Assembly (NCBI GenBank): GCA_011049115.1
Contig: DSCM01000089.1
Span: 1-60,036 of the forward strand
Direction of reading: 5' to 3'
DNA from: Pseudomonadota bacterium
Lineage (GTDB): Bacteria; Desulfobacterota; Anaeroferrophillalia; Anaeroferrophillales; Tharpellaceae
Length of the DNA: 60,036 nt
In this document: one piece after another, positions 34,904 to 51,668 of the stretch
How positions within the stretch are numbered: the first letter of the stretch is position 1
Layout of the letters: the number at the start of each line of letters is the position of its first letter
Notes under the pieces: generated by a model
Database searches by the model: none
Told to the model about the DNA's origin: nothing
Seen by the model: the letters and a program-made list of their open reading frames with translations, nothing else
Made by a program: the position numbers and the translations under genes

Positions 34904-36581
34904 CCTTCTTTCCCTCCTCTTTTTCCTCCATCACCGGCGTTGCCGCTGGCCCGGCCGGGGACTGTCGCGGCAGGTAAACCGTAAACACAGTTTCGACTCC
35001 AGGGCTGCTGACCACCGTCAAGCGACCGCCGTGAGCCTCGATCAGGCCCTTGGCGACAGCCAGGCCGATTCCGCTGCCGCCGCCGTCCTTGGAATGGCGG
35101 CAGCGATATCGAGTGAAGATCTCTTCCAGTTCCCGGGCTTCAATCCCGGAACCATGATCGACCACCTCGACCACGACGCCATCGGCTTCGGGCAACAAAC
35201 GCATTTCCACCGTCTGACCGGGCGGCGAAAAGCGCAGGGCGTTATCGATCAGGTTGATGAAAACCTGGTTAAGTCGGCGGTAATCGGCGTATAGTCTGAC
35301 TTCCGGAATCGCCGGGCAGCGAATTTCGATACCCATTCTGGCGGCTTCAGCCCGAAAAAGCAAGGCTACCTCCTGCAGCAGCATGCCCAGATCGAGCGCC
35401 TCATATTCAAGTTCGATCTGGTCAAGCTCGATGCGGGCCAGGTCGAGCAGGCGGCTGACCATGGCGATCAAGCCCCGAATATTGCGTTCGATAAGCTGCA
35501 AATAAGAACGCTGGTCCTCGTTGTCGACCGTCTGCAGGAGATAATCCACCCCACCCTGGATATTGGTCAGCGGCGTCCGCAACTCATGCGAAACCGTGGC
35601 CAGAAAATCGGTTTTCATGGCGTCGCGCCGCCGCAGACCCAGGTTGGCCTCGTTGAGCTCCCGGTTGACCTCCACCAATTCCCGCGTCGCCCGGGCAACC
35701 TTTTTTTCCATTTCTTCATGCTGACGCCGCAGGGCCGCGGCCAGCTCGGCGAAACCGACGGCCAGTTCACCGATTTCATCTTGACGTCGCAGGATCGGCA
35801 CCGGGAAATTGATATCCTGTTCGAAAGCGCGCATCTGCCGGCGCAAACGTTTCAATGGGCGCACGGTCAAATTGTAGTTAAGGATGAAAAGCACGGCGAG
35901 GGTCGACAGGAAGATAAAGACGGCGTCCCGAAAAAGTGCCCACGAGAGCTGCCTGATGCGACTTTCCGCCGTGTCGCTGGGGATGATAACGCTCAGACAT
36001 CCGCGCAGGTCGCCAACCCTGTAACCCTCGTATTCCCGATGACAACCAAGGCAGCCGGCCTCGATAAAGAGGGGGCGGATATGACGAAAGACCTTTTGCC
36101 CGTCCAACTCCTGCAGGAGATTGACTTCAGCCGCCCCCCGTTCGGCGAAATCGGCCAGGGCCCGCCGCTCGGTTTCGTCCGGAGCGTTGTCGGGGTTGAT
36201 CAGCCGGGTGCTGGTCAGGCGGAAACGATAAACCCCCTGTTTCATGGCGTATTTGGACAGTTCACGCGTGACCAGGGCGGGATTGCAAAGCTGCAGCCGG
36301 CAGCCATTCAAACTCAACTCGCTGCCGGGAAGATGAGGGTTGCCGGAGGTCCAGCGTACGTAAACCCCTCCCTGATCCGACAGCCAGCTGCGGGTCAGCA
36401 ACACCTGGCGTCCCAGCAAGCGGGCCTGGCTCTCCAACTGTCCCATAATAAAGGTCTTTTCCGTCTGAAACTGACGGGAAAAGAGCACGCCCACCCCGAT
36501 CAGCAGCAATCCGGAGACTCCGATCAGATATTTACCGCCGAGCCCCATGGCCGCAATCCGTCTTTTGATAAAACTCCGCAT
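34893..36581 (-). CDS. c-haem-binding sensor histidine kinase (DUF3365/Tll0287 type)
   Basis: A 562-residue inner-membrane kinase. A first transmembrane segment (about 18-33) is followed by a periplasmic DUF3365-like sensor with a single haem c motif C177-L-G-C-H181 (GCLGCHREY), a second membrane segment (about 213-232) and a HAMP linker. Then come a HisKA domain with SHELRTPLT (His near 343) and HATPase boxes GSGIEA and GSGIGLAVAKG. The haem suggests sensing of redox state or a gas such as NO. It starts at ATG 36581 after ATAGGAGA. Divergent 265 bases from the Rieske operon, it is the likely controller of that operon. Confidence 0.92.
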   Translation of the reverse strand: MRSFIKRRIAAMGLGGKYLIGVSGLLLIGVGVLFSRQFQTEKTFIMGQLESQARLLGRQVLLTRSWLSDQGGVYVRWTSGNPHLPGSELSLNGCRLQLCNPALVTRELSKYAMKQGVYRFRLTSTRLINPDNAPDETERRALADFAERGAAEVNLLQELDGQKVFRHIRPLFIEAGCLGCHREYEGYRVGDLRGCLSVIIPSDTAESRIRQLSWALFRDAVFIFLSTLAVLFILNYNLTVRPLKRLRRQMRAFEQDINFPVPILRRQDEIGELAVGFAELAAALRRQHEEMEKKVARATRELVEVNRELNEANLGLRRRDAMKTDFLATVSHELRTPLTNIQGGVDYLLQTVDNEDQRSYLQLIERNIRGLIAMVSRLLDLARIELDQIELEYEALDLGMLLQEVALLFRAEAARMGIEIRCPAIPEVRLYADYRRLNQVFINLIDNALRFSPPGQTVEMRLLPEADGVVVEVVDHGSGIEARELEEIFTRYRCRHSKDGGGSGIGLAVAKGLIEAHGGRLTVVSSPGVETVFTVYLPRQSPAGPAATPVMEEKEEGKKDDA

Positions 36582-36726: not shown

Positions 36727-36751
36727 TTAACATTAAATTAACATCATTAAC
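36727..36751 (+). promoter_or_regulatory. TTAAC direct repeats, candidate response-regulator site
   Basis: TTAAC occurs at 36727-36731, 36738-36742 and 36747-36751, an 11-bp spacing then a 9-bp spacing. The first 16 bases, TTAACATTAAATTAAC, match 14 of 16 positions of the repeat upstream of the second octahaem gene (51157-51172). It lies 96-120 bases before the Rieske start and about 150 before the kinase start. Confidence 0.6.
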
Positions 36752-36846
36752 CAGCACTTTACATGGAGTATGCTATTTTTCGTAATGATAAACAGGCGAC
36801 CAACAATCAGTTTCGCCAACCGCCATTGTCTGGAGAAAAGCCGATT

Positions 36847-37305
36847 ATGAAAAAAGACAGCCAAAACAACCGGCGGCTGGGACGGCGGGATTTCCTCGCC
36901 AACGCGGCCGTGACCGTGGGTCTGACCGCCGTCCTGGGCCTGGCCGGAACCTATGGTGTCCGCTATTTGGTGCCGCGGGCGCGGAAAAAGACCTTCGTCG
37001 ACGTCCTTGTCAGCAACGTCGGTGAGCTGGCGCCCGGCGGCGCCCGGGAATTCATCGACGGCCGCGGCCGCAAGGGTATCATTATCAATCACGCCGGACA
37101 GATCAAGGCCTTTTCCAAGATCTGCACCCATCTCGGTTGCGAAGTCGAGTGGCACGACCAGACCAAGCAATTCTACTGCCCCTGTCACGAGGGTTTCTTC
37201 GCCGCCGATGGCCGCAATATCAAGGGCCCGCCCCCCCGGCCGCTAGACGAATACAAGGTTACGCTCAAGGACGATAACATCTACGTTGCCATAGAGAAGG
37301 TGTGA
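36847..37305 (+). CDS. Rieske iron-sulfur protein of a cytochrome bc complex
   Basis: A 152-residue [2Fe-2S] protein exported by the Tat route (RRDFLANAAVTVGL, residues 13-26). The cluster ligands are C93, H95, C111 and H114 in CTHLGC and CPCHEG, with C98 and C113 placed to form the stabilising disulfide. The usual CPCHG(S) glycine-serine is EG here, which may shift its potential. The ATG at 36847 is preferred over 36763 because the twin-arginine signal then sits at the N terminus, with GGAG upstream. The stop overlaps the cytochrome b start region, giving a tight operon. Confidence 0.93.
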   Translation: MKKDSQNNRRLGRRDFLANAAVTVGLTAVLGLAGTYGVRYLVPRARKKTFVDVLVSNVGELAPGGAREFIDGRGRKGIIINHAGQIKAFSKICTHLGCEVEWHDQTKQFYCPCHEGFFAADGRNIKGPPPRPLDEYKVTLKDDNIYVAIEKV

Positions 37306-37307
37306 TC

Positions 37308-38021
37308 ATGGAAAAGCAAGAGCAAACCCAGGGATGGATTGATAAAACCCTGCCGGTGGACTGGCGCAAAGTCAAGGAAGAAGCGGTCGGCGAAATTCTC
37401 CCCGGCCATATGAAGCTCTGGTGGTACTGCCTCGGCGGCGTACCGGCGATCATGTTCCTGATCCTGGTGGTCACCGGTATCATGCTGGCTTTTCACTACG
37501 TGCCGCACCCGGACATGGCCTATGAGAGCGTCTTCCGGATTACCACGGAAATTCCCTATGGCTGGTGGCTGCGCTCGATTCACCGCTGGAGCGCCGAAAT
37601 TATGGTGGTGACCGTTTCCCTGCATGCCATCCGGGTGTTTGCCACCGGCGCCTACCGCCATCCCCGGGAACTGTGCTGGATCACCGGAGCCCTGCTCCTG
37701 CTGCTGACCTTCGGAGTGGCCTTTACCGGCTACTCCCTGGTGTACACGCAGATGTCCTATTGGGCCATGACTATCGGCACCGGCATCGCCACCAAGACCC
37801 CGCTGATCGGGCCTTTCCTCGCCCGTTTTCTGCTCGGTGGCGAGGTCATCGGCGAGGCCACCCTGAACCGATTCTTCATTCTCCATGCCGCCCTGCTCCC
37901 CACCGTTATTTTTCTGATGATTTTTGTCCATATCATTTTAATCCGTCTGCATGGGGTGGCCGAACATCTGGTCGGCATCCAGCGTGAAGTGGTGCGCGGT
38001 CTGTCGCACGGCGACGAATAA
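37308..38021 (+). CDS. Cytochrome b, N-terminal (b6-like) subunit
   Basis: A 237-residue four-helix cytochrome b. Haem ligands are H92 and H106, and H193 and H208. The second pair has 14 residues between ligands, as in cytochrome b6 rather than mitochondrial cytochrome b. The quinone-site region WWLRSIHRWSAE is present. It is split from its C-terminal partner, again as in b6f. Electrons would pass from quinol through this subunit to the Rieske protein. Start ATG 37308, 3 bases after the Rieske stop. Confidence 0.94.
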   Translation: MEKQEQTQGWIDKTLPVDWRKVKEEAVGEILPGHMKLWWYCLGGVPAIMFLILVVTGIMLAFHYVPHPDMAYESVFRITTEIPYGWWLRSIHRWSAEIMVVTVSLHAIRVFATGAYRHPRELCWITGALLLLLTFGVAFTGYSLVYTQMSYWAMTIGTGIATKTPLIGPFLARFLLGGEVIGEATLNRFFILHAALLPTVIFLMIFVHIILIRLHGVAEHLVGIQREVVRGLSHGDE

Positions 38022-38035
38022 CCAGGAGGAAACCG

Positions 38036-38434
38036 ATGACCAAACCAACCCCCCGGCATCCCGAAAACAGCTACCGTTTTTTCCCAGACCACGTTCTGAC
38101 CGAGGTCAACATCGGGCTTTTTCTCTTTTTTCTCTGCTGCGTCCTGGCCATCGTTCTGCCGGTCGAGGTCGGCGAGAAGGCCAACCCCCTGGTGACGCCG
38201 GAGCACATCAAGCCCGAATGGTACTTTTTCCCCATGTACAAGTGGATCAAGCTGACCCCCGAAATAATCGGTCTCTTCGTACCCATGATTGTGATCGCGG
38301 TTTTCATCTTCTGGCCCCTGGTCGACAATTTTCTCGTCAAAGTCAGCGGCAGCCGCAACCTTCCCAGCATCATCGGTGTTATCGGCATGGTTTTCGTTAC
38401 CACCCTGATGATCATGGAAGCTTTTCCGCATTGA
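38036..38434 (+). CDS. Cytochrome b C-terminal (subunit IV-like) protein
   Basis: A 132-residue membrane protein with three hydrophobic helices and the Qo-site motif PEWYFFP (residues about 59-65), corresponding to the PEWY of subunit IV. It follows the b6-like gene by 14 bases with an AGGAGGAAA site. Together the pair forms a complete split cytochrome b. Confidence 0.92.
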   Translation: MTKPTPRHPENSYRFFPDHVLTEVNIGLFLFFLCCVLAIVLPVEVGEKANPLVTPEHIKPEWYFFPMYKWIKLTPEIIGLFVPMIVIAVFIFWPLVDNFLVKVSGSRNLPSIIGVIGMVFVTTLMIMEAFPH

Positions 38435-38469
38435 ATTTCTTGAGATTTTAACCAAAGGGGAGAATAAAC

Positions 38470-40086
38470 ATGGATGTTAACGCAAAAAAGTGGCTGGTCT
38501 TCATCATGTGTGTTTTTCTGCTCGCGGCCCTGTTCCTGGTCGCCCGCTTCGAATCGGCCCGATTTGCCGCGAAGGTGGGTCTGGAACCACACAAGGTTTT
38601 CGTCAGCGACGCCGCCAAACCCTGCCTTGAATGCCATCGGCGCAAAGGGGTGGCTCCGAAAATGATCGAGCAGTGGGAAAGCAGTGAACATGCCGCCAAG
38701 GGCATTGACTGCGTTCAGTGCCACACCGCGGAAAAAGGCGATTTCGACGCCTTTACCTGTCCCGAATCAAGCACCCTGGTAGCCAAGTTCCCGACTCCCA
38801 AAGATTGCTCCAAGTGTCATAAACAGATCGTCGAGGAATTCACCGAAAGCAAGCACGCCTTCCCCTTCTGGATCTACGCCAACGCAGACCGCGCCGTTTT
38901 CGAGCCCGTCATCGGCACCAAGCATGGCTGCGAGCAGTGCCATCAGATCACCAATATGTGGCCGGACGGCAGTGTCGGCGAATGCGACGCCTGTCATCCC
39001 AAACACAGTTTCAGCCTGGCCGTGGCCCGGCAGCCCGAAACCTGCGGCGAGTGCCATATCGGCCCGGATCATCCTCATATCGAGCTTTATCTGGAGTCCA
39101 AACACGGCAATATTTTCAAGGCCAACCAGAGCAAGATCAACCTCGATTATCACAGCAGCGATAAAGACCCGATTCCCCATGAAGTCCCGGTCTGCACCAC
39201 CTGCCACATGGACGCGGTTCCCGGCGTCGCCAAGACCCACAACGTCAGCGCCCGGCTGGCCTGGGAATCGCAGGCGCCGTGGAGTTTCAGAACCGTCTGG
39301 TTCGATGAAAAACTCGGCGACTGGCAGGCCAAACGGAAACGGATGGCCGGAGTCTGCGTCAACTGTCACTCGCGGAATTTCACCGACATTTATCTCCTGA
39401 CCGCCGATCTCGTCAATCTTCAGTACAACGAAATCCGCCGTTCCTTTGTCTACTGGAATAAGCGCTACACCGCCGCCGGGCTGGTCAAGCGAATCCAGCT
39501 GGGAGATAAATTCTATTCAAATCCGGTGCTCAACGGCTGGGATGAGAAACCTGAGGTGCTGATGTACGAAACCTGGCATCACGAAGGCCGCCGCTTCCGC
39601 CACGGCTCGGAAATGATGGGCGCCGATTACACTCAGTGGCACGGCATCTGGGAGATGCAGCATAAACTCCAGGAAATGATCAACTGGGGGGCCGAGAACG
39701 GCGATGAAGAAGCCAGAAAAATCGCCGAGAGTACCAGTCCGACGAAGTTCATGCCCTACAAGCTTTACGATTTCCCCGGCAATGAGTGGGGTATCGGCAC
39801 CGAGAGAAACCGCCTGCCGGTGCTTTACCAGGTAATTCCCGACTACTGGGAAAAGGTCAAGGCCAATGTCAAGGAAGCCGTCGATCAGGGGCTGTTGACC
39901 GCAGCCCAGTGGGAACTCTGGCTGGAGCGTTACAACAACCGCGACCATTATCTCGGCACCAAGTACCCGCCACATCCGATCAACGAAGCCTACAAGGCGC
40001 GTTTTGAGAAGGATATGGCCGAACAAAAGCGCCAGGCGATTGATCTCAAGTTACCGTCGCCGGATGCCTTCAGCGATGTTCATTAA
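38470..40086 (+). CDS. Membrane-anchored octahaem cytochrome c, HAO family
   Basis: A 538-residue cytochrome with an N-terminal membrane anchor (about 8-25) and eight CxxCH haem motifs at C52, C81, C113, C154, C172, C192, C242 and C296. The distal segment with HGSEMMGADYTQWHG is typical of the hydroxylamine-oxidoreductase (HAO) family. Members oxidise hydroxylamine or hydrazine, or reduce nitrite or NO. Direction cannot be decided here without checking for the cross-linking tyrosine. Placement after Rieske and cytochrome b suggests a terminal reductase fed from quinol. Confidence 0.88.
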   Translation: MDVNAKKWLVFIMCVFLLAALFLVARFESARFAAKVGLEPHKVFVSDAAKPCLECHRRKGVAPKMIEQWESSEHAAKGIDCVQCHTAEKGDFDAFTCPESSTLVAKFPTPKDCSKCHKQIVEEFTESKHAFPFWIYANADRAVFEPVIGTKHGCEQCHQITNMWPDGSVGECDACHPKHSFSLAVARQPETCGECHIGPDHPHIELYLESKHGNIFKANQSKINLDYHSSDKDPIPHEVPVCTTCHMDAVPGVAKTHNVSARLAWESQAPWSFRTVWFDEKLGDWQAKRKRMAGVCVNCHSRNFTDIYLLTADLVNLQYNEIRRSFVYWNKRYTAAGLVKRIQLGDKFYSNPVLNGWDEKPEVLMYETWHHEGRRFRHGSEMMGADYTQWHGIWEMQHKLQEMINWGAENGDEEARKIAESTSPTKFMPYKLYDFPGNEWGIGTERNRLPVLYQVIPDYWEKVKANVKEAVDQGLLTAAQWELWLERYNNRDHYLGTKYPPHPINEAYKARFEKDMAEQKRQAIDLKLPSPDAFSDVH

Positions 40087-40091
40087 TGCCA

Positions 40092-40129
40092 TTGCCGCCG
40101 GGGAGTCGCCGACGCCTACCCGGCGGCAA
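40092..40129 (+). repeat. Intercistronic 11-bp stem hairpin
   Basis: TTGCCGCCGGG pairs perfectly with CCCGGCGGCAA across a 16-base loop, starting 6 bases after the octahaem stop and ending 22 bases before the next start. There is no T-run, so it is more likely an RNA-stability or processing element than a terminator. Confidence 0.5.
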
Positions 40130-40151
40130 AACGAAATTTGAGGGAGGAACT

Positions 40152-40442
40152 ATGTTGAGGAAAAAGATTATGAGCTGGGGCCTGGCTGGATGTCTGGCGG
40201 CGCTGATCCTGACACCCGCAGTCGGCGGCGCCGCGGACGAGCTGCACCGGCAGCTGTTCACCGTCAAATGCAGCAAATGCCACAGCGCCGATAAAATCAA
40301 GCAGTTTCACGGCAACCAACAGCAGCTGCTGAAACTCTTGCAGCGGATGTCGGGCAAACACGGCGCGGAAATCAAGCCCGAAGACCTGGAAAAAATCGAC
40401 GAGTACATCCTCTCCCTGGATCTGACCACCGGTTCCGGTTGA
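40152..40442 (+). CDS. Small periplasmic monohaem cytochrome c
   Basis: A 96-residue protein with a signal peptide (LAGCLAALILTPAVGGAAD) and one haem motif CSKCH, followed by a short helical domain. AGGGAGGAA precedes the ATG. It is the last gene of the Rieske-cytochrome operon and is followed by a strong terminator. Probably a periplasmic electron shuttle to or from the octahaem protein. The axial Met is not obvious. Confidence 0.85.
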   Translation: MLRKKIMSWGLAGCLAALILTPAVGGAADELHRQLFTVKCSKCHSADKIKQFHGNQQQLLKLLQRMSGKHGAEIKPEDLEKIDEYILSLDLTTGSG

Positions 40443-40483
40443 TCATCCCGGCGCTGTCTCGTTATCGATAAAGATATGCCCCC

Positions 40484-40516
40484 AAAGGCCGAAGTCTCGC
40501 CGGGACTTCGGCCTTT
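40484..40516 (+). terminator. Terminator of the Rieske-cytochrome operon
   Basis: A 13-bp perfect stem AAAGGCCGAAGTC / GACTTCGGCCTTT with a 7-base loop, 42 bases after the cytochrome stop. The A and T ends would serve both directions. Confidence 0.8.
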
Positions 40517-40560
40517 ATCTGTTCCGTACTCAGCCATCAGTCGAACCAGGAGTAAAGCTT

Positions 40561-41106
40561 ATGCGCTTGCTTACGATATATTTTGCCTTCATGCTTTCGC
40601 TTCTATGTCCGCTTGCCGGCCTCACCCCGGCCGCGGCGGAAAGTGATGCCGCCGGCGTCGTTCTGGCAAACATTGACGGGGATCAGATCACGGTCGCCGA
40701 TTTTGACGACTATCTCAAACTCTTTCACCAGGAGAGTGCTTTCGCCCAATGCGATCATGAGACCCGGGGCCGACATCTTCAAAACCTGATCAACCGGCGT
40801 CTGCTGCTCGAAGAGGCGCAGAAGCTGGGCTATTTTGCGGCGCCGGAATTAAAAAGTCACGGCCGACTCGACCAGGGAGAACAAGAGGCCTTTGCCCTGC
40901 GTAAACTGCTGACCGAAAAGGTTGTAAAACCCGGCACCGCCACTCGTGAAGCGATCGAGAGCTACCAGGCCGAACACGCGGTCGCCAGTTACGCCGTAGC
41001 GGAAACAGAATTGAATCACCGTCTGCGCCGGCAGCTTTTTGATGATTTCGTCTTGCAACTGAGAAAAATTAAGCGTATAGAAACTTACGAAAATAATCTG
41101 AAATAG
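40561..41106 (+). CDS. SurA-type chaperone fragment without PPIase domain
   Basis: A 181-residue exported protein (signal about 1-26, [14 protein letters not shown]). It keeps the SurA/PrsA N-terminal module ([20 protein letters not shown]... [15 protein letters not shown]) and the final helix of those proteins ([16 protein letters not shown]), while the parvulin isomerase domain between them is missing. It is more likely a dedicated folding chaperone than a broken gene, since the frame is clean. It sits just downstream of the cytochrome operon terminator, so it may help fold exported cytochromes. Confidence 0.65.
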
Positions 41107-41171
41107 CTCGGAGTCAGCTTCCGACCCCGAGCAAGAACCTGTCTGGCGCTGTCAATGTCTGGAGAAAATTC

Positions 41172-42836
41172 GTGAAAAGTTTGTCCATTAAAACCAAACT
41201 GGGTTTGAGCCTCGGCGGACTGATACTGATTGTTGTCGTGATGTTTTTGCAGACTCTAAACACCACCAGGGGCCAGAAACATGACGGTTTACTGATCAAT
41301 CTCGCCGGCCGTCAGCGGATGCTGACCCAGAAGATGACAAAAGAGGCACTGCATCTTTTTCTGGCCCGAGGGGCAACCAGGACGGAGATTTTACCGAAAC
41401 TGACCGCTGACCTGAAAAACACCATGGCGGTTTTCGAACAGACGCTTACCGCCCTGAAAGACTCAGGCCGCGCCCCTCTGACTCTGGACTTGGACAAGGG
41501 GGCTTTTCGTGACTGCCCCAAAGCCGAAGAACCGGCTTACTCTCAACTGGCCAAAGTCGAGGAACTGAAAAACGCCTTTTTTGCGAATCTGGATCTGATC
41601 ATCAGCAACAGCGGCGATACGCAAAAGAATCTACAGGCCGTATTGTCCGACAATCTCCCCCTGCTCCAGGAGATGAACAAGGCTGTCGGCATGATGCAGA
41701 AGCAGTCGGAAAACCGGGTGCGCCAGCTCCTGCTCAGCCAGATGATCGGCCTGGCCGCCGGTGCCGCTTTATTTATTGGCGCCTTTCTCCTGGCTGGTTC
41801 GATTGTGCGACGTATTGCCGAGATTGGTCGCTTCGCGGATCGCCTGGGAACTGGCGATTTTTCCGTCAATGCCGCCATCGCCGGCAACGATGAACTGGGA
41901 GCCATCGGCAGGAATCTCCATGCCATGGTCAGAAACCTCGCGCAGATGTTTGCCACCGTCAAGGAGAAAACCACCTCGTTGCATCAGTTGGCAGCGGCCC
42001 TGGAAGGCATTGCCGATAAAATCGCGGCCGAAGCCTGGGAGAGCGCGGAACGATCCCGTGCGGTTTCAGCTGCGGCGGAAGAGATGAATGTCAACTTTTC
42101 CTCCATCAATGATGCCGTCGAGAGAACTTCCGCCAATATCGGCCGGGTAAGCAATGCCGCGGAAAGCATGACCGGAACCATCGCGGAAATCGCCGGCAAC
42201 AGTAGCCGCGCCCGGCAAATAACGTTAGAAGCTGTCAAAAAATCAAAAGCTTCGGGAGAAAAAGTTAAAGAATTAAATCAGGCCGCCATCGCTATCGGCA
42301 ATGTCAGCGAAACCATCACTGCAATTGCCGCTCAGACCAATCTCCTGGCTTTGAACGCCACCATCGAAGCCGCCCGTGCCGGGGAAGCGGGCCGGGGCTT
42401 TACGGTGGTTGCCAACGAAATCAAAGCCCTGGCCATGCAGACCGCCGGGGCCACCGATGAGATTACAGCTAAAGTTCGAGGGATTCAGGGTTTCACTGAG
42501 GTCACGAAGCAGGATATTGTGCAGATATCCGAGATCATTAAAGAGATCAATAACCTCGTCAACGAAATTGCCACCGCAGTCAACGAGCAGTCTCAGGCCA
42601 CCCAAGAGATTGCCGACAGCGTTTCTGAATCATCCCAGGAGATGGCCGACGTTAACGACAATATCAGTCAGGGCAGTCAGGTCGCCACCGAAGTCGCCAA
42701 AGATATCAGCGCGGTCAGCCATTCAGCCAACGAGCTTGACGATGGCGGCCGGGAGTTACTGACTTTTTCCAAGCAGCTTTCCAAACTCGCCGACCAGTTC
42801 AACTCATCTATGAACCAATTCAAACTGACAAGCTGA
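41172..42836 (+). CDS. Methyl-accepting chemotaxis protein with PilJ-type sensor
   Basis: A 554-residue transmembrane receptor. The periplasmic part has the type IV pili methyl-accepting motif [19 protein letters not shown], which in related sensors binds nitrate or nitrite. Membrane helices are at about 9-28 and 178-200, then HAMP, then the signalling domain with the conserved hairpin tip [33 protein letters not shown]. It starts at GTG 41172 after GGAG. No CheR-tethering pentapeptide is visible at the C terminus. The sensor type fits the nitrogen-oxide theme of the neighbours. The ligand is inference. Confidence 0.92.
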
Positions 42837-42883
42837 AGTTAAACCACGATACGGGATAAGTCACTCACCCAATGACAGGAGAA

Positions 42884-43435
42884 CTAGAACCAGAATTCGG
42901 GATAACGCCGATTTCTGGGAAGATTGTTGATGGCTAGGGCGATTAGGAGCATGACCAGAGCTCCGGAAGCGGCCGGGATCAAAGCGTAGAGAAAGCCCAG
43001 ACGATGGATGGCATCACCACCGATTACCGCGATCAGGGCGGTAGCCCCTCCCGGAGGATGCAGGGTCTTGGTCAGATGCATCAGGGCAATGGCAGATGAG
43101 ACCGCCAGGGCTGAAGCCAGCCAGGGCTGCTGACCGGTCAGCCTGAAAAAAACTACCCCGACCAGGGCGGACAGCACATGCCCGCCGATCAGGTTGCGCG
43201 GCTGGGCCAGAGGGCTCTTGATGGCCCCGTAGATCAGGACGGCCGAAGCCCCGAATGAACCGATGACCATCACCAGCCCGGTCTGATCCAAAACCTTGAA
43301 GTGCAGTAATCCGACCGCGGCAATCCCCAAAAAAGATCCAATCCAGGACCAGACCACCTCGGCGATGCCAACCCGCGGCGGACTCTGGCCGCCGCCCTTC
43401 ATTTTTTCCAGATATGAAAGCTGCCCGTCGCGCAT
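42884..43435 (-). CDS. HPP family integral membrane protein
   Basis: A 183-residue protein with about four transmembrane helices and the family motif LHPPGGAT. Some HPP proteins act in nitrite transport in cyanobacteria, but most are uncharacterised. It is divergent from the RND genes with a 241-base spacer holding an FNR-like site. Confidence 0.85.
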   Translation of the reverse strand: MRDGQLSYLEKMKGGGQSPPRVGIAEVVWSWIGSFLGIAAVGLLHFKVLDQTGLVMVIGSFGASAVLIYGAIKSPLAQPRNLIGGHVLSALVGVVFFRLTGQQPWLASALAVSSAIALMHLTKTLHPPGGATALIAVIGGDAIHRLGFLYALIPAASGALVMLLIALAINNLPRNRRYPEFWF

Positions 43436-43559
43436 GCCGATTCTCCTTTTTTTTCCGCCTTACAGATCACTTTACAGATATTTAAATGAGGTTGCGGGGC
43501 CCGCTCCCGTCTTGGCCTTCGTTGATGGGAATTGTATATCAACCCTGAAGAAAAAGTCC

Positions 43560-43573
43560 TTGACTTAGATCAA
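43560..43573. promoter_or_regulatory. FNR/HcpR-type palindrome
   Basis: TTGACTTAGATCAA, arms TTGAC and ATCAA separated by 4 bases, in the HPP-RND divergent spacer, 104 bases before the membrane-fusion gene. It matches the CRP/FNR-family layout and one arm of the HcpR-type TTGAC-N4-GTCAA. Confidence 0.5.
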
Positions 43574-43676
43574 TGCTCTCGCAGGGGGAAAGCTGGCATA
43601 GAAATGCGCGCAACTCACCAGCACAGGTTGCCCCCAACCTGAGTCCGCAAGCAATCAACTTTTGGAGCGTTTTGCT

Positions 43677-44825
43677 ATGAAAAAGATACTTCTCCGCCTG
43701 GCGACGGTAGTGGTTGTCATGCTGCTGATCCTGGCCGCGGTCCTGCTGGTCAAGCGCCGGCAGGCAGAACTTGCCACCCGGCCGACGCCGTCGATCCGGC
43801 CGGTGGCGGTAACCATCAAATCCGCGCATTGGGGGCGACTGGCCGTGACCCGACATTACCTCGGCGTCATTGAACCCGAAGCCGAAGCTCGGCTGACGGC
43901 CCAGACCACCGGTTATATTACCTCACTCACCAAGGATGTCGGCGACCGCCTGGAAAAGGGCGAGATCGTCGCCGACATCGATCCGCGTCTGGCCGCGGCC
44001 CGGCAAAAGGCCTTGGCGGCGGAACTGGACGGGGCCCGGGAAGATCTGGCCATCAGGGAAACCATCCGCGACCGCAGACGAGGGCTTATCGGCAAACGGG
44101 CGGTCTCCCAGGAGGCCCTCGATGAAGCCGAACTGGCCGTCAGTCTGGCCGCCAGCCGACTGCGGCGACTAAAGGAGGAACTGACGGCGGCCACGGTTGA
44201 GCTGTCTTTCACCCATCTTGAGGCGATGTTCGCCGGGATAGTCAGCGAGCGCCTCGTGGAAGTCGGGGATCTGGTGCATATCGGCACCCCGGTGCTGCGG
44301 ATCGAAGAACCGGAACGGGGCTACAAAATTCTGCTCCGGACGCCCCAGGAAACCGCCGCCCATCTGGCCGTCGCGGCCCCGGCCAGACTTAGTCTGGGAG
44401 AGCAAAGCCAAGCAACTACAGTCGAACGGATTTATCCGGCGATAATCGCCGGTAAACTCGCAACCGTGGAAATCAAGGTTCCGAACCGACCCTTCAACCT
44501 GCCCAGCTACGCCGAGGTCGGTGTCGATCTGACCGTAGCCGAGCCCGAGGGCTGGATTATTGATGCCGACTGTCTCCTGGAAACCGGGAACGAGGCCATG
44601 GTTTTCGTTGTCGGCGTCAAACAAATGATTTTGTCTCGGCCGGTCGCGGTTCGCGGCCGCCTGGCTTCCCAAGTGGTAGTCGAGGGTTCCTTGACGACAG
44701 CTGACCGACTGGCGGCCGGACCTGAATCCCTGCTCCTGACCCTGGGAGACGGGGTCGAAATCATGCCGGCGGCTGAAGCTGTTTCCAGGACAATCCCCGC
44801 AACGACTGCCGGTGACAACTCATGA
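43677..44825 (+). CDS. RND efflux membrane fusion protein
   Basis: A 382-residue periplasmic adaptor with an N-terminal membrane anchor (VVVVMLLILAAVLLV). It shows the paired lipoyl halves typical of HlyD/AcrA proteins (VIEPEAEARLTAQTTGYI and the return near TVELSFTHLEAMFAGIVSERLVEVGDLV). A coiled hairpin lies between. The ATG at 43677 is chosen since the anchor begins there. Its stop overlaps the next start (ATGA). Confidence 0.9.
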   Translation: MKKILLRLATVVVVMLLILAAVLLVKRRQAELATRPTPSIRPVAVTIKSAHWGRLAVTRHYLGVIEPEAEARLTAQTTGYITSLTKDVGDRLEKGEIVADIDPRLAAARQKALAAELDGAREDLAIRETIRDRRRGLIGKRAVSQEALDEAELAVSLAASRLRRLKEELTAATVELSFTHLEAMFAGIVSERLVEVGDLVHIGTPVLRIEEPERGYKILLRTPQETAAHLAVAAPARLSLGEQSQATTVERIYPAIIAGKLATVEIKVPNRPFNLPSYAEVGVDLTVAEPEGWIIDADCLLETGNEAMVFVVGVKQMILSRPVAVRGRLASQVVVEGSLTTADRLAAGPESLLLTLGDGVEIMPAAEAVSRTIPATTAGDNS

Positions 44826-46375
44826 AAATGAAAAACTCCCGCTACCACAACGCGCTCAAGCAAATCCATAAATATCTGGGTCTGCTGGTTCTGCTGTATG
44901 GTCTCTGGATGGCTCTGAGCGGCATCGCCCTCAATCATCCGGAGGCTATAAAAAACCTGTCTTTTTCCAATCGTCTGATGCCGGATAACTATCAGTATCG
45001 CAACTGGAACAGAATGAGCTGGCGCTGCGCCCAATTTTCCAGCTTCGATGACAACCTTCTCTTGGTTGGTGGAAAAGAGGGGGTCTGGCAAAGCCTCGAT
45101 CGGGGAAAAAGCTTTACTCGGCTGGCAGGTGGTTTTCCTGCGGCAAGTTATGCAAAAGATACCTTCAGCCTTCTCCTGGCCAATAACGGAAGCAAAGAAA
45201 TTCTTTTTGCGGGCACCAGATCCGGGCTTTATTACTGGCAAGAGCAACAGTGGCAGAAGGTCGATCATCCGGTGCTGAGCCAGGCCAGGGTCCTCGACCT
45301 TCTCCAGGTCGACAACCTGATTCTCGCTTTTACCGACAGTCTTGCCTTCAAGGCCGAGATAAGCAGCGAAAAGCTTATTTTCAGATCCTTGCCTCTACCG
45401 GTTGAAGCATCGATCTTCCAACACCTGCCTCTTTTTCGCTGGCTAAGAAAGGTACATGATGGTTCCATCCTGGGTTTTTACGGTAAACTGTTTGCAGACG
45501 GCATCGGCCTGATTCTGATCTTTCTCAGTCTGTCTGGCTTGGTAATCTGGTATACGCGCCAAAGAAAAAAACTGCATAAAAAAACAATTTTCAGCGGAAA
45601 ATTTTTCTTTTTTAATTTTCACTGGCATAGCAATCTGGGCGTGGTTAGCGCCCTGTTTATTTCCATCCTGATTTTTTCCGGAGCCTTTTCCTTTCCCCCG
45701 CTATTGGTGACCATCGTCCGCCTCGCGACTCCGGCTTGTCTGCTCGCGGATAAAGACGCCGACAATCCCTGGCGGGAACAAATTCTCCGGGCCGCTTATC
45801 TTGAAAGCCGTAAACGACTGATTATCGCCACGAAAAACGGTCTTTTCAGCGGCCCGCTCGACGGCAGCAGAGAATTCATCCGACTTCCCGATACCGTTCC
45901 GATTCATGGCATGGGGGTTCAGGTCTTCACCAATATTGGCTCTGAACAACTTCTGCTTGGTTCCTTCAGCGGGCTTTACCTCTGGGATACCAGCAGCAAC
46001 AACGTGATACATTTAAAAGCCGGCAAGCAGGCCAATGTTCCCGACTGGGGACGGGCGATCATGGTAACCGGAGTCGCGATTTTCAAGGATCGGCCCGTAC
46101 TGGCGGTAGACTACGAAAGTGGAATCAAGCCTTTAAATGTAAACCAGGAAATCACCCCGCAGATGCCCGCTCTTCTGGCCGAACAAAGCCGCATTTCTCT
46201 CTGGCACGCTCTCTTTGAACTCCACAACGGGCGAATTTTCGAACAATTCATCGGGCAGTTTTACTGGCTGATTACCCCTTTGGGCTGGCTGGCCTTCTTC
46301 CTGATCACTTTGAGTGGCGTGCTGCTCTGGCTGAAGAAAAAAATCAACGGGGGCTCTAAACGGAGAAAACCATGA
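44822..46375 (+). CDS. PepSY-like transmembrane protein within an RND operon
   Basis: A 517-residue inner-membrane protein. Membrane segments are near residues 15-40, 220-245, 265-300 and 475-500. They carry HKYLGLLVLLYGLWMALSGI and HWHSNLGVVSALF, which resemble PepSY-associated TM (iron-uptake-linked) proteins. Two large exported domains contain WD/BNR-like repeats, for example FAGTRSGLYYW and LLGSFSGLYLWD. It is coupled by overlaps to both the membrane-fusion and pump genes, so it is part of the efflux set. Role unknown; possibly sensing or metal reduction. Confidence 0.65.
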   Translation: MKMKNSRYHNALKQIHKYLGLLVLLYGLWMALSGIALNHPEAIKNLSFSNRLMPDNYQYRNWNRMSWRCAQFSSFDDNLLLVGGKEGVWQSLDRGKSFTRLAGGFPAASYAKDTFSLLLANNGSKEILFAGTRSGLYYWQEQQWQKVDHPVLSQARVLDLLQVDNLILAFTDSLAFKAEISSEKLIFRSLPLPVEASIFQHLPLFRWLRKVHDGSILGFYGKLFADGIGLILIFLSLSGLVIWYTRQRKKLHKKTIFSGKFFFFNFHWHSNLGVVSALFISILIFSGAFSFPPLLVTIVRLATPACLLADKDADNPWREQILRAAYLESRKRLIIATKNGLFSGPLDGSREFIRLPDTVPIHGMGVQVFTNIGSEQLLLGSFSGLYLWDTSSNNVIHLKAGKQANVPDWGRAIMVTGVAIFKDRPVLAVDYESGIKPLNVNQEITPQMPALLAEQSRISLWHALFELHNGRIFEQFIGQFYWLITPLGWLAFFLITLSGVLLWLKKKINGGSKRRKP

Positions 46376-49300
46376 ACTGGGTGGCTGTTTATCTGAAAAA
46401 ACCCCATGCCGTCATTTCCCTGATTCTGCTGGGCTGCGTTTTCGGGCTGATCAGTTTCAAAACCCTGCCGCTCAATCTCTTTCCCGACGCCAACTACCCG
46501 CAGGTGGCGGTGATTCTCAGCTGGCCCGGGGCTACGGCCGAGGATGTCGCCGACCAGGTTTCCCGGCCGGTGGAAAAGGAGTTGGCGAGCCTGGATCGCT
46601 ATCGTACGGTCAAGGCCACGGTTCGCGATGAAATCGCCGCCGTCCGGGTCGAATTCGACTACGGTAAGTCGCTGGACGCGGCGGTCGCCGATGTCGGTTC
46701 CGCCCTCGACCGGATTCGGGCGAGTCTGCCGCCCGAGCTCCTGCCGCCCCGGATCTTTCGGGTCAGCGACGCCACCACTCCGGTCCAGACCCTGGCAGTG
46801 ACCCCGCGGCCGGGGTCGCTCTTAGACCTGGACAAGGTGCGTCAGCTCTGCGACAACCAGGTCCAGGAGGCCCTGCTGCGGGTACCGGAAATCGCCGATG
46901 TCGAGGTCTTCGGCGGCCGGCAGCCAGAGATTCAGCTCCGCCTACAAGGCGATCGCCTGGCCCGTTACGGGCTGACGGCGGATCAGATTCAGGCGGCGGT
47001 TTTCGCCGCTAATCGCAACCTGCCGAGCGGCTGGCTGCGCTCGGCAACCGGTGAAGAGGTCATCAGCCTGCGCGGCGAGCGCAGGCTTCGCCATGAGCTG
47101 GCGGATATTGTCCTTGCCCGCGACCCCAGCGGGGGGGCGGTCTATGTCCGGGACGTGGCCGAAATCATTACCACCGTCGAGGAGCCGCTCTCCTTATTCC
47201 GGGGCAACGGCCGTCCCGCCATCGGCCTCAACATCCTGCGCGGCGAAGGCAAATCGGTAAGCGCCGCCCTTGAAGTCCTGAGAAAATCTCTACCGGAAAT
47301 CGCGGCCGCCTTTCCCGATCTGGAATTTACCATCGTCGACACCCAGGGCGAACTGATCGCCACCTCGGTGGACAACCTCCTTGACGCTTTACGTGACTCG
47401 ATGCTGCTTACCGTCCTGGTGATTTTCCTCCTGATGGCCCGGCTGCGCCCCATCCTGCTGGCCGCGATTTCAATTCCCTTCACCTTTCTGCTGACCTTCG
47501 CGGGCATGAAGCTGATCGGCTACGAGCTCAATATCGTCACCATGACCGCCGTCATCCTGGCGGTGGGGCTGCTGGTCGACGACGCCATCGTCGTCATCGA
47601 AAACATCGACCGCCACGCCGCCGGCGGCGACAAATCCCGCCTTCAGGCCGCGATCGACGGCACCCGGGAAATCATGCTCGCCGATTTCGCGGGCACGGCC
47701 ACCACCCTGGTGGTGCTGATTCCGATCATGTTTGTCGGCGGCTATTCCGAAAAGATTCTTCGACCTCTGACCGTGGTTCTGGCACTGGCTTTGTTTTCCT
47801 CCTACATCGTTTCGATCACGGTGATTCCCCTGCTCGCCCCGAAACTGATGAAGACCGGCCGCGACCGCAAGCGGCTGGAAAAAATCTGCGCCCGCGGCAC
47901 CGACGCCTGGCTGTTCCCCCTGCAGGAGTTCATGGTTTCTTGCTTTAGGCTGATCCGCGGCAAAAAAGGCTGGCTCATGCTGGCGGGGCTGCTGGTGTTG
48001 CTGCCGCTTAGCCTCAAACAGCTGCCTCTGGCCGGCCGCGACCTGATGCCGCCCATGGATACCGGCATCGTCAAGATCGACTTCGAGGTCTGGCCCAACG
48101 TGCCACTGGCGGTCACGGAAAAGGTGGTGGCGGCCATGGAACAGCGGATCATGGCCCGGCCGGGGTTTGTGCGGATGGCGACCGTGGTCGGAGCCGAGCC
48201 CGCTGTCATCAGTTTCGGTTCCGAGCGCACAGCGCAGGAGGGCCTGATCACCGTCCATTTCGTTAATCGTTTTGCCCGGGAACAATCGATCTGGGAAATC
48301 GAGGAGGAACTGCGGCGGGAATTTGCCGGGATTGCCAACCTCAAGCGGGCCGATGTCTACGATTACGGGGCTACCCCTTTATCGTCAATCGCGGCCCCAA
48401 TTGACGTCATGGTCTCAGGCCCCGATCCCCGGCAGCTCGATCGGCTGGCCGCCGAGGTTGAACAACGGCTGCGCCGGGTACGGGGGCTGACCACGGTTTC
48501 GCGTTCCTGGGACTGGTCGAAAAAGGAAATCACCGTCACCCTCGATGAAGCCCGTCTGGCCGGTTGGGGCCTGTCGCCAGATGAGGTTTCGGCAAGCCTG
48601 ACGACCGCCACCAACGGCCGCATCGCCTCGCGCTTTTTGGTGCCCGGCCAGGACGGCTATCCGGTACGGCTACGCTTTGACCCGACCGGATTTGGCCATG
48701 TCGCCGACCTCGAAAGCCTGCAGATCGCGGGCCCTGAAGGGGTAGTTCCCCTGGCCGAGATCGCCGAGTTCGGCCGGGTTTTCCGGCAGACCCGCATTAC
48801 CCGTCAGGATCTGATGCCGGTGGTCGATATCCGTGGCTATCGCGGCGGCGAGTCAGCGATTACCCAGCTTCAGGATCAGGTCAAGGCCCGGCTCGCCGAC
48901 CTGCCGCTGCCGGCCGCTTACCAGATCACTCAGGAAGGCGAAATCCGCCACATGCAGGAGAGTTTCGCCGATCTCGGCCGGGCCCTGGGCCTGGCGCTGC
49001 TTCTGCTCTACTTCGCCATGGTCGTCACTTTTTCCTCTTTCACCCGGCCCCTGATCATCATGAGCGCCATTCCTTTAGCCTTTATCGGCGTGCCCTGGGG
49101 CATGCTCCTGCTTGACCGCCATTTCTGCATGCCGGCGGCCATGGGTATGATTCTGCTGGCCGGCATCGTCGTCAACAACTCGATTCTGCTGGTCGATTTT
49201 ATCGAGAGCGCCCGGGCCCAGGGCCGTTCTCTGGATGAAGCCGTCGAAGAGTCCATCCGCCGGCGCACCCGGCCGATTCTGATGACCGCCTTAAGTACCG

Positions 49301-49473
49301 TCGCCGGCATGCTGCCGATCGCGGCCCAGTCAGCCGTCGGCCTTGAACGACTCTCGCCGCTGGCGGTGGTGGCGATTGCCGGGCTGCTGGTCGCAACCTT
49401 TCTCACTTTAGCCTGGGTGCCGGCTCTTTACGCCGGAATCGACCGGCTAAAACAAAAACTGCGCCGAGCCTGA
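46372..49473 (+). CDS. RND efflux transporter permease (HAE-type)
   Basis: A 1033-residue proton-driven pump with 12 predicted transmembrane helices in the AcrB arrangement. The proton-relay aspartate pair is present in VGLLVDDAIVVIENIDRH, and the matching TM10 motif AGIVVNNSILLVDFIE is seen. Two large periplasmic loops lie after TM1 and TM7. No outer-membrane TolC partner is encoded nearby. The substrate is not predictable; metal-specific CusA residues were not verified. A terminator-like hairpin follows. Confidence 0.95.
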   Translation: MNWVAVYLKKPHAVISLILLGCVFGLISFKTLPLNLFPDANYPQVAVILSWPGATAEDVADQVSRPVEKELASLDRYRTVKATVRDEIAAVRVEFDYGKSLDAAVADVGSALDRIRASLPPELLPPRIFRVSDATTPVQTLAVTPRPGSLLDLDKVRQLCDNQVQEALLRVPEIADVEVFGGRQPEIQLRLQGDRLARYGLTADQIQAAVFAANRNLPSGWLRSATGEEVISLRGERRLRHELADIVLARDPSGGAVYVRDVAEIITTVEEPLSLFRGNGRPAIGLNILRGEGKSVSAALEVLRKSLPEIAAAFPDLEFTIVDTQGELIATSVDNLLDALRDSMLLTVLVIFLLMARLRPILLAAISIPFTFLLTFAGMKLIGYELNIVTMTAVILAVGLLVDDAIVVIENIDRHAAGGDKSRLQAAIDGTREIMLADFAGTATTLVVLIPIMFVGGYSEKILRPLTVVLALALFSSYIVSITVIPLLAPKLMKTGRDRKRLEKICARGTDAWLFPLQEFMVSCFRLIRGKKGWLMLAGLLVLLPLSLKQLPLAGRDLMPPMDTGIVKIDFEVWPNVPLAVTEKVVAAMEQRIMARPGFVRMATVVGAEPAVISFGSERTAQEGLITVHFVNRFAREQSIWEIEEELRREFAGIANLKRADVYDYGATPLSSIAAPIDVMVSGPDPRQLDRLAAEVEQRLRRVRGLTTVSRSWDWSKKEITVTLDEARLAGWGLSPDEVSASLTTATNGRIASRFLVPGQDGYPVRLRFDPTGFGHVADLESLQIAGPEGVVPLAEIAEFGRVFRQTRITRQDLMPVVDIRGYRGGESAITQLQDQVKARLADLPLPAAYQITQEGEIRHMQESFADLGRALGLALLLLYFAMVVTFSSFTRPLIIMSAIPLAFIGVPWGMLLLDRHFCMPAAMGMILLAGIVVNNSILLVDFIESARAQGRSLDEAVEESIRRRTRPILMTALSTVAGMLPIAAQSAVGLERLSPLAVVAIAGLLVATFLTLAWVPALYAGIDRLKQKLRRA

Positions 49474-49480
49474 AAAATAA

Positions 49481-49514
49481 AAAAGGCGTTTCTCGCAAGC
49501 GAAAAATACCTTTT
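49481..49514 (+). terminator. Imperfect hairpin after the RND permease
   Basis: AAAAGG..TTT.TCGC pairs with GCGA.AAA..CCTTTT around an AA loop, beginning 8 bases after the RND stop. The pairing has two internal mismatches. Confidence 0.45.
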
Positions 49515-49633
49515 CGACAACCGCTCGGAAAAGAAATAAACGGATGCGAGCAGCCGTCAACATATTGCCGCATTCTATAACATGCCGGAACTCGACATAT
49601 CATTCCTTTTTGCATCCTCCGCAAAAATAAAAA

Positions 49634-49669
49634 AGCGAAAGCGGGCATATGCCTACGCCCGCTTTCGCT
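49634..49669 (-). terminator. Terminator of the second octahaem gene
   Basis: A 13-bp perfect stem AGCGAAAGCGGGC / GCCCGCTTTCGCT with a 10-base loop. On the minus strand it is followed by TTTTTTATTTTT, about 25 bases after the octahaem stop. Confidence 0.8.
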
Positions 49670-49692
49670 GCTAAACACTCGGCCGGAAAAAA

Positions 49693-51003
49693 CTATTTTT
49701 TCTTTAGCTCGTGCAAAACCCGCATTTTCTTGGCATCGTCGTTAATTTTGCCCAGATCCTTGGTCATCATCGCCCAGCCGTACCAGTAGGCGTAATCGGG
49801 ATTAACATGAAAATGCCCCTGGTAGGTGCGCATCCGATGTTTCATGTACATCTCAAACAGGGTCTGCTCGATGGAACTCATCCCGGCGGGAAGTTCCTTG
49901 TAGCTGTCACCCGAGGCATGGGCGTAATCTGTTCTCATAAAATAAAGAAAATCCGGATAAGCAAAGGGCTGAGCTTCGCGCTTCTGCAGAATGCCGTCCT
50001 TGTAGAGTCCGGCCACGATGTCGATGGCCTGGGCCAGGAGACGGTCGGCCTTCATCAGCATGGTGTCACCCATGGCCAGCTGTTCTTTGGCGTAACTTTC
50101 GGAATGACATTTCGAGCAGGTCTTGATCATCTTGTCGCGCTCGGTCTGCCAGGCTTCCTGGGTCAGACGGGCGAGATCGACGGCCTTGACCGCATCGAGA
50201 CGGGCGGTGGGCTGGCCGGTTTCGGGATTGAGGACACCTAAAGCCTTGAGAATCGTAACCTGGTCCGCGGCCCACTGTTTGTCTTCGGGCAGCGGCAGGC
50301 GCACGCCGAGAAAACCCCAGGCGGTGTGATTATTGTGGGTACCGTCGGGCAAATGACATTCCTGGCAGGTCGGGGCCGGAGCGTCGGCTGGCAGCCGGCC
50401 GGCTTCACGCACCTGCCAGCGGGTACCGTGTTTGGCGCTCGACCACATCTCCCACTGAGGATGGTCGTAGCCCATATGACATTGCTGACAGGCCCGAGGA
50501 TCCTGGGCTTCCTTCTTCGAGAAGGTATGCCGGGTATGGCATTCATCACAGGAATTATTCTGATAGCGGTAGCCCTTGGCCCGCTGTTCCTGTTTCTGGG
50601 CCTCGGTCTTGATGCCCATGTTGTGGCAGCCGCCGCAGCCGCGACCGCCTTCCATGAGCTCGTCGGGCTCGACGTGGGTGATCGGCAGGGCGTTGAGCGA
50701 GGTCCAACCGAAATTATGTTTGCCCATGGCAAACGAATTGAACTGTTCTTCATGGCATTCCTTGCAGACATGCTCGTCCGGCAGCACCGCCAGCTTGTAA
50801 TCGGCCGCGTTCCGGTGTTTGTCGCCGTGGCAATCGACACAGCCGACGCCGTTTGTCGAATGCTTACTCAGTTTCCAGTCCTGTACCTGACCCGGTGACT
50901 TCCGGCTGTGACAGTCGATGCAGACATCGGCCCACAGCGGCGCCGTCCAGAACAAGATAACCGCCGCCGGCAATCCCCAGAAAAACCATTTACCTGTTTT
51001 CAT
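49693..51003 (-). CDS. Periplasmic octahaem cytochrome c, HAO/HaoA family
   Basis: A 436-residue exported cytochrome (signal LPAAVILFWTAPLWAD) with eight CxxCH motifs at C28, C55, C80, C123, C152, C172, C213 and C296. The segment HRMRTYQGHFHVNPDYAYWYG near the C terminus matches the HAO-family octahaem group, including the HaoA proteins thought to act in nitrite ammonification. It differs clearly from the 38.5-kb protein: no membrane anchor, different spacing. ATG 51003 follows AAGGAGG. It has its own terminator and a TTAAC repeat upstream, so it is a single-gene unit. Confidence 0.9.
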   Translation of the reverse strand: MKTGKWFFWGLPAAVILFWTAPLWADVCIDCHSRKSPGQVQDWKLSKHSTNGVGCVDCHGDKHRNAADYKLAVLPDEHVCKECHEEQFNSFAMGKHNFGWTSLNALPITHVEPDELMEGGRGCGGCHNMGIKTEAQKQEQRAKGYRYQNNSCDECHTRHTFSKKEAQDPRACQQCHMGYDHPQWEMWSSAKHGTRWQVREAGRLPADAPAPTCQECHLPDGTHNNHTAWGFLGVRLPLPEDKQWAADQVTILKALGVLNPETGQPTARLDAVKAVDLARLTQEAWQTERDKMIKTCSKCHSESYAKEQLAMGDTMLMKADRLLAQAIDIVAGLYKDGILQKREAQPFAYPDFLYFMRTDYAHASGDSYKELPAGMSSIEQTLFEMYMKHRMRTYQGHFHVNPDYAYWYGWAMMTKDLGKINDDAKKMRVLHELKKK

Positions 51004-51156
51004 CGATTTCCTCCTTGTTAAATTGGTTAACGAACGCCTGACAGAATACCCTAAGCCGTAAGACGCGGCCCAGGCCACGGGGCTCGCCCCTACGTCGGCC
51101 TTTCCCCGTTTCCGGGAATGAACTTTAGTTTACTCTTTCACCAACCTGAATTCAAG

Positions 51157-51172
51157 GTTAACTTTATGTTAA
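51157..51172 (-). promoter_or_regulatory. TTAAC direct repeat, candidate response-regulator site
   Basis: On the minus strand TTAACATAAAGTTAAC: two TTAAC units 11 bp apart, 154 bases before the octahaem start. It is 14 of 16 identical to the site upstream of the Rieske operon and in the same orientation relative to its gene. Confidence 0.6.
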
Positions 51173-51259: not shown

Positions 51260-51580
51260 TCAGTTGACGCCCCCGCGCCGACTAAAGCGAGCCCGCCAAA
51301 AATGTTTCAGCGCCAACCAGGGATGATGCCGGGCCATCCGCGGCCCGGCGTAACGCATCACCTTGACTATGCTTTCTTTCATGTCCGGGCGGTAACAGTG
51401 AATCGGACATTTGCCGCAGGTCGTCCGCCGATCACCCAGTGGGCAGCGGGCCAGGCGGCCTGCGGCGTAAGCCAGTAGTTCCCGGCAATTTTCACATAAA
51501 TCTTCAGCAACGCCATGATGCTCCCGGCAATACATGACCAACATCAGTTTCAAGGTGTAGGCTTCATCCTTCGTGCTCAT
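51260..51580 (-). CDS. ygbA: YgbA_NO family protein (nitrosative-stress induced)
   Basis: A 106-residue cysteine-rich protein (C18, C29, C32, C46, C55, C58, C62) with MYCREHHGVAEDLCENC, CGKCPIHCYRPDM and VMRYAGPRMARHHPWLALKH, a close match to the nitrous-oxide-stimulated-promoter family of E. coli YgbA, which is induced by NO. The exact biochemical role is unsettled. The ATG at 51580 is preferred because AAGGAGA lies 6 bases upstream. An FNR/HcpR-type palindrome lies 89 bases before the start, so NO-responsive control is likely. Confidence 0.9.
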   Translation of the reverse strand: MSTKDEAYTLKLMLVMYCREHHGVAEDLCENCRELLAYAAGRLARCPLGDRRTTCGKCPIHCYRPDMKESIVKVMRYAGPRMARHHPWLALKHFWRARFSRRGGVN

Positions 51581-51668
51581 GGTCATTCTCCTTAAAGAAA
51601 AAGCGGAATTTTCCGGCGGGATCACTCCACCGGCCCGACTCATCTAACGTATTTAACGAAAATACGGC

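Follow-up and report, generated by a model that had tools for sequence, protein, structure and literature searches.

A conserved four-half-site repeat array between a c-haem sensor kinase and an HAO-family octahaem cytochrome operon in Desulfobacterota

Octahaem cytochromes of the HAO family occur in many phyla, mostly without a known substrate. What controls their genes, and in answer to which signal? The question is raised by a 60,036-nucleotide stretch of contig DSCM01000089.1 (assembly GCA_011049115.1; hereafter the window) from a bacterium of the family Tharpellaceae, Desulfobacterota, which encodes two such proteins, octahaem cytochromes 1 and 2 (OCC1 and OCC2), each preceded by the direct repeat TTAAC-N6-TTAAC. 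A reading of this DNA from sequence alone had proposed that an OmpR-type regulator encoded beside the first repeat binds both, forming a haem-sensing regulon. Here we confirm the TTAAC repeats, find them conserved, and report that the first belongs to a larger array of four half-sites and that this full array marks HAO-type cytochrome gene clusters in nearly all the places where it occurs across the phylum.

A four-half-site array beside HAO-family octahaem genes

The two repeats are present at 36727–36742 (plus strand) and, on the minus strand, at the second site listed in Table 1; they are identical at 14 of 16 positions and both have the 11-bp spacing claimed for them. The pair described at the first site stands, but it is only half of the element there, which continues with a TTAAC and a TTTAC that had been overlooked. 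The four half-sites start at 36727, 36738, 36747 and 36758, with periods of 11, 9 and 11 bp. Domain searches bear out the placing of this site between a c-haem kinase/OmpR-type regulator pair and a Rieske–cytochrome b–octahaem operon: the kinase scores 73.5 bits against PF11845 (cut-off 24.1), and its CXXCH motif, present as CLGCH, lies in a domain fused to HAMP and HisKA modules.

Relatives were covered by 22 genomes of the order, from two families (f1, to which the source genome belongs, and f2), and by 395 genomes drawn from the phylum; genome-wide statistics are pattern searches with reversed-pattern controls. The divergent kinase/regulator pair is linked to the Rieske–cytochrome b–OCC1 operon in both families, and the repeats are kept in the orthologous promoters of both, as a regulatory role would predict. 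All readable f1 promoters of the OCC1 operon carry the array, usually as TTAAC-TTAAC-TTAAC-TTTAC (the first half-site is degenerate in G002), and the f2 arrays have TTTAC four times with the layout unchanged. A blind search with TTWAC-N6-TTWAC-N4/5-TTWAC-N6-TTWAC gave one match per genome in 12 of the 22 genomes of the order and none for the same pattern reversed; across the phylum set it gave 18 matches against 2. Outside the order there are seven matches; each has a divergent Tll0287-type sensor gene on one side and an octahaem gene of the HAO family on the other, and at four of these seven loci a NapC/NrfH-like tetrahaem gene comes first. Among 19 distinct arrays, every one has a Tll0287-domain sensor gene adjacent and divergent, mostly encoding a full kinase (that of G003 is cut off by the contig end), and 17 have an HAO-family octahaem gene downstream; the contigs of the other two, from G011 and G019, end within cytochrome b.

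Within the window the exact TTAAC-N6-TTAAC pair occurs twice against 0.07 expected, a count reached in 1 of 100 shuffles. The whole-genome search suggested by the sequence-only reading finds the pair rare in the 2.64-Mb source genome, with 3 exact copies where the reversed pattern has 4, so that there is no genome-wide enrichment. Octahaem genes follow two of the three copies; the remaining one is in the fliF/fliG region (genes named by reading the sequence). What is notable about the pair is thus the location of its few copies and not its abundance. The relaxed TTWAC pair shows no excess in the same genome either (15 matches against 20 in the control), and a search for a wider regulon there yielded none, the remaining TTWAC pairs being mostly inside open reading frames or without a related gene downstream. 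One such pair, 70 bp before a CheY-like gene, is probably there by chance.

The array also has a fixed relation to a promoter element. A −10-like hexamer (at least 4 of 6 matches to TATAAT) starts exactly 12 bp past the last half-site in 17 of 19 arrays, whereas scores as good occur at about 9% of other offsets; the hexamers at the −35 position have 3 or fewer of 6 matches in 18 of 19. A PhoB-like activator substitutes for the −35 contact, as is established for PhoB, and the layout seen here would be the one expected of such an activator. A regulator of the OmpR/PhoB family binds as tandem dimers on direct repeats with a strict 11-bp period, extendable to tetramers (PMC4832192); the array likewise has 11-bp direct repeats near a promoter and room for two dimers. 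The conserved position of the array between sensor and octahaem genes, together with the −10 register, supports its assignment as the operator of the adjacent OmpR/PhoB-type regulator, which we regard as very probable.

In the mechanism that we propose, a signal, most likely nitric oxide (NO) or a related nitrogen oxide, would cause the periplasmic c-haem Cache kinase to phosphorylate the regulator, two dimers of which would bind head-to-tail on the four half-sites. Bound beside the −10 element of a promoter without a good −35, the regulator would recruit RNA polymerase in a PhoB-like manner and switch on the Rieske–cytochrome b–octahaem operon; we infer activation rather than repression. The same regulator would probably bind the single box upstream of OCC2 and raise its expression. 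Taken whole, with local operators, a nitrogen-oxide signal and OCC2 included, this is likely to be the best explanation of the locus. Of the earlier proposal of an OmpR-type regulator acting on tandem repeats, the part concerning a conserved, rare direct-repeat operator beside the regulator/kinase pair holds, but the reading of the OCC2 box is not settled. The c-haem sensor kinase and regulator do stand beside a conserved operator, but 'haem-sensing' is the wrong term, because haem is the cofactor of the sensor and the literature on its family points to nitric oxide; 'haem-based sensing' describes it better.

The second octahaem gene and its single box

The second repeat precedes a separate octahaem gene, OCC2, as had been proposed. 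Nine of ten readable f1 upstream regions carry its box exactly, and that of G004 differs from it at one position; the shuffle probability per region is about 0.0005–0.002. In most OCC2 promoters of relatives, TTGCAT at +26 and a −10-like hexamer near +49 (hexamers assigned by eye) come after the box, and the register from box to −10 equals that of the array promoters. The pattern TTAAC-N6-TTAAC-NT has 35 matches in the f1 genomes against 21 for its reversal; 13 of these lie at OCC1 or OCC2 promoters, which account for the excess, since their removal leaves 22. The conservation and register suggest that this is a functional box, probably for the regulator proposed to act at the first site, and control of OCC2 by that regulator appears rather likely.

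OCC1 and OCC2 have eight CXXCH motifs apiece; both match PF13447, and their matches among solved structures are proteins of the HAO family (E=3e-18 and 2e-25 to the Nitrosomonas europaea HAO in the PDB). At the position of HAO Tyr467, OCC2 has tyrosine (NPDYAYWYGW), as do all f1 and f2 orthologues long enough to reach it, whereas OCC1 has a residue other than that of an oxidative (P460) HAO (Table 1). Reductive HAOs are without the cross-linking tyrosine, and a separate gain of it has been inferred in Desulfobacterota (PMC12758564). Given this difference, opposite directions of catalysis are possible; that the two cytochromes may differ in this way is offered as a lead only. A 45%-identical paralogue of OCC2 in G004 and G016 has threonine at the cross-link position.

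Alternative explanations and the nature of the signal

Could the boxes be something other than the operators of the local regulator? In favour of chance similarity in AT-rich intergenic DNA, the half-sites are rich in A and T and the source genome has no more copies of the bare pair than of its reversal; the four-site pattern, however, was found in the same kind of locus every time across the phylum with almost no control matches. The phylum search rules out a chance origin of the first site, and chance is an extremely unlikely account of the boxes as a whole. The resemblance of half-site and 11-bp spacing to PhoB/PhoP boxes, together with the approximately 191 bits that the regulator scores against the PhoB model TIGR02154 (under its cut-off of 296), would agree with Pho boxes bound by PhoB independently of the neighbouring kinase. 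Such a role is very improbable, as a recognisable phosphate gene follows none of the 19 arrays, all of which adjoin a Tll0287 sensor gene, and the source genome is without an excess of TTWAC pairs. Nitrogen-oxide genes of Deltaproteobacteria are often under HcpR, with the consensus TTGACnnnnGTCAA in some lineages (PMC1274295), and in f2 the regulator has a Crp/Fnr gene next to it, but we give hardly any credence to a CRP/FNR-type site: the conserved half-sites are direct repeats with no conserved inverted partner. The OCC2 box is the harder case, and several observations weigh against its control by the same regulator. The promoter-like element of OCC2 in the window lies 9 bp nearer to the box than those of relatives; f2 genomes carry OCC2 without the box; and no orthologue of the kinase, the regulator or the OCC1/Rieske operon was found in G004, G009, G013 (94–97% complete) or G015 (61%), all of which retain the box. 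Shared control of OCC1 and OCC2 is therefore likely but not secure, because the box persists in three near-complete genomes that lack the pair. A different transcription factor of similar specificity might read the OCC2 box, leaving the array to the local regulator and no shared regulon, and the positions of G009/G004 and G013/G015 in separate parts of the OCC2 tree, which suggest at least two losses, lend this some support. The other regulators in these genomes are nonetheless only about 37–41% identical with different recognition helices, and a search there for another regulator that could read the box turned up only such distant ones; the box-to-(−10) register is identical in both promoter types, and gaps in the metagenome-assembled genomes or recent loss of the pair could produce the same picture. 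In these genomes another factor may read the box, the pair may have been lost recently or the assemblies may have gaps, and a separate factor as the general explanation seems unlikely.

The operator may also be correctly assigned and the signal not. Were the c-haem domain to sense redox state or a sulfur compound, the octahaems might reduce sulfur species, as Speth et al. proposed, explicitly as speculation, for an HAO-family protein of Tharpellota, arguing in part from the scarcity of nitrogen oxides in Auka sediments (PMC9213671). Against this, a 2026 preprint reports NO sensing for Tll0287 domains (renamed sCache_heme) that are joined to signalling modules, while stand-alone ones look redox-related; in that study the signalling-type protein tested, which is not one of the kinases described here, bound NO tightly with slow release, and the stand-alone one did not (PMC12889525). 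Array loci include a NapA-like molybdoenzyme (L238; 650 bits to PRK13532, under the cut-off of 904), a NapC/NirT-family protein (L235), NapC/NrfH-like proteins and, in f2, a type II DMSO-reductase-family enzyme, and a YgbA_NO family gene lies upstream of OCC2 in the window. These gene contexts suggest nitrogen oxides over sulfur without proving it; a redox or sulfur signal is possible but doubtful, and on the sensor family and gene contexts we hold the case for a nitrogen oxide as the signal to be evenly balanced. Put more broadly and tentatively, a phylum-wide periplasmic NO-sensing two-component system with a diagnostic four-half-site operator may control HAO-family octahaems, which would hence be nitrogen-oxide reductases or detoxifiers, and in Tharpellales the switch would have come to include a second octahaem, one whose tyrosine is of the oxidative type. 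With a sensor domain from an NO-binding family, such a conserved switch is independent evidence on what these octahaems respond to, and the array is a DNA signature that leads to HAO clusters wherever the contig is long enough (17 of 19) and from which further members can be predicted. The choice between nitrogen and sulfur thereby becomes directly testable.

How does the system compare with those already described? It shares with PhoB/PhoP a winged-helix regulator, half-sites every 11 bp, more than one predicted dimer and a position next to the −10 with a poor −35, but its half-site is TTAAC/TTTAC, its sensor a c-haem Cache kinase and its predicted targets HAO-family octahaems. Its kinases have the same CXXCH domain, HAMP and kinase modules as the Tll0287/sCache_heme (PF11845) class reported as NO sensors; other proteins were tested in that study (PMC12889525), in the text of which we did not find an operon or neighbourhood analysis, and the kinases here have in common an extra conserved cysteine (GC[IL]S). 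In reverse-HURM/epsilonHao nitrate ammonification and in the Caldithrix Nap–Rieske–cytochrome b–Hao cluster (PMC3701875, PMC5317091), too, a quinol-oxidising module feeds an HAO-family octahaem with nitrate reductase genes adjacent, the Caldithrix Nap cluster having a comparable arrangement of Rieske/cytochrome b and Hao genes (PMC5317091), but the literature searched contained no counterpart of the present regulatory module. The HcpR, NsrR and NorR regulons (PMC1274295) are alike in their probable response to nitrogen oxides in related bacteria; those regulators are cytoplasmic one-component proteins with other operators, whereas the present system is a periplasmic c-haem two-component one. 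A different kind of element is the TAACTGA heptamer of Guaymas Beggiatoaceae (PMC4679880), repeated in adjacent copies close to start codons. No matching regulon appeared in the literature searched, which is not proof of absence.

Feature coordinates and neighbouring genes

Table 1. Positions in the window of the proposed regulatory elements and of the genes associated with them.
Feature	Position	Strand	Remarks
OmpR/PhoB-type response regulator	34202–34903	−	Receiver PF00072 and Trans_reg_C PF00486
Histidine kinase	34893–36581	−	Periplasmic Tll0287-like (sCache_heme) domain, CLGCH, HAMP, HisKA, HATPase
Four-half-site direct-repeat array, proposed operator	36727–36762	+	TTAAC(36727)-N6-TTAAC(36738)-N4-TTAAC(36747)-N6-TTTAC(36758)
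−10-like hexamer TATTTT	36774–36779	+	TGC before it; 11 bp past last half-site
Rieske iron-sulfur protein	36847–37305	+	Twin-arginine-like leader (by inspection)
Cytochrome b, N-terminal half	37302–38021	+	b6-like
Cytochrome b, C-terminal half	38036–38434	+	Subunit IV-like
OCC1, octahaem cytochrome 1	38470–40086	+	Membrane-anchored HAO family; Gln at HAO cross-linking Tyr position
Small mono-haem cytochrome c	40086–40442	+	Often adjoins OCC1
OCC2, octahaem cytochrome 2	49693–51003	−	Secreted HAO family; Tyr at HAO Tyr467 position
Promoter-like TTGAAT-N17-TAAACT	51127–51155	−	Just downstream of OCC2 box; by inspection
Single TTAAC-N6-TTAAC box	51157–51172	−	Upstream of OCC2

The array-linked kinases (that of the window and those of L146–L153 and L232–L238) carry the extra cysteine, as GC[IL]S or GCVS, soon after the CXXCH motif. 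The position is methionine in the solved Tll0287 and alanine in the kinase of L154, a locus without an array; the cysteine is possibly a haem ligand or a redox cysteine. Covariation of recognition helix and half-site (DVHIRHLR with TTAAC in f1, DVHIQHLR with TTTAC in f2) was considered and is broken by G125 (L235), where glutamine accompanies TTAAC sites. In G392 (L232:5633-6487, −) the Tll0287 sensor runs on in frame into the C-terminal portion of the DNA-binding domain of the regulator, the kinase and receiver missing; the fusion may be genuine, the remnant of a decayed gene or an artefact of assembly.

At the f2 loci L106, L107 and L109 the genes before OCC2, which has no box there, are cysteine-synthase/NifU/NifS-like, and another regulator of the OmpR/PhoB type lies nearby with a kinase; G016, G018 and G019 have a different regulator/kinase pair near OCC2. 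At L081 (G013:C8:16316) a gene for a cytochrome c3-like tetrahaem protein starts 25 bp after a TTAAC-N6-TTAAC copy, a distance too short for a normal activator site; this copy is maybe due to chance. The YgbA_NO gene (PF11756, 123.9 bits; 51260–51643, minus strand) shares the strand of OCC2 and lies immediately upstream of it; the idea that the two are conserved neighbours was discarded, the window genome being the only one in f1 to have the gene there. In f2 (L108:9277-13330, +) and in G091 (L233) the genes after an octahaem gene encode a molybdoenzyme of the type II DMSO-reductase family, with 54% identity between the two, and an iron-sulfur subunit. Directly after the OCC1 cluster of the window stands a chemoreceptor with a PilJ-type N-terminal domain (41172–42836, plus strand) and, also near the operon, an HPP transmembrane protein (PF04982; 42884–43435, minus strand), a family presumably tied elsewhere to nitrite transport.

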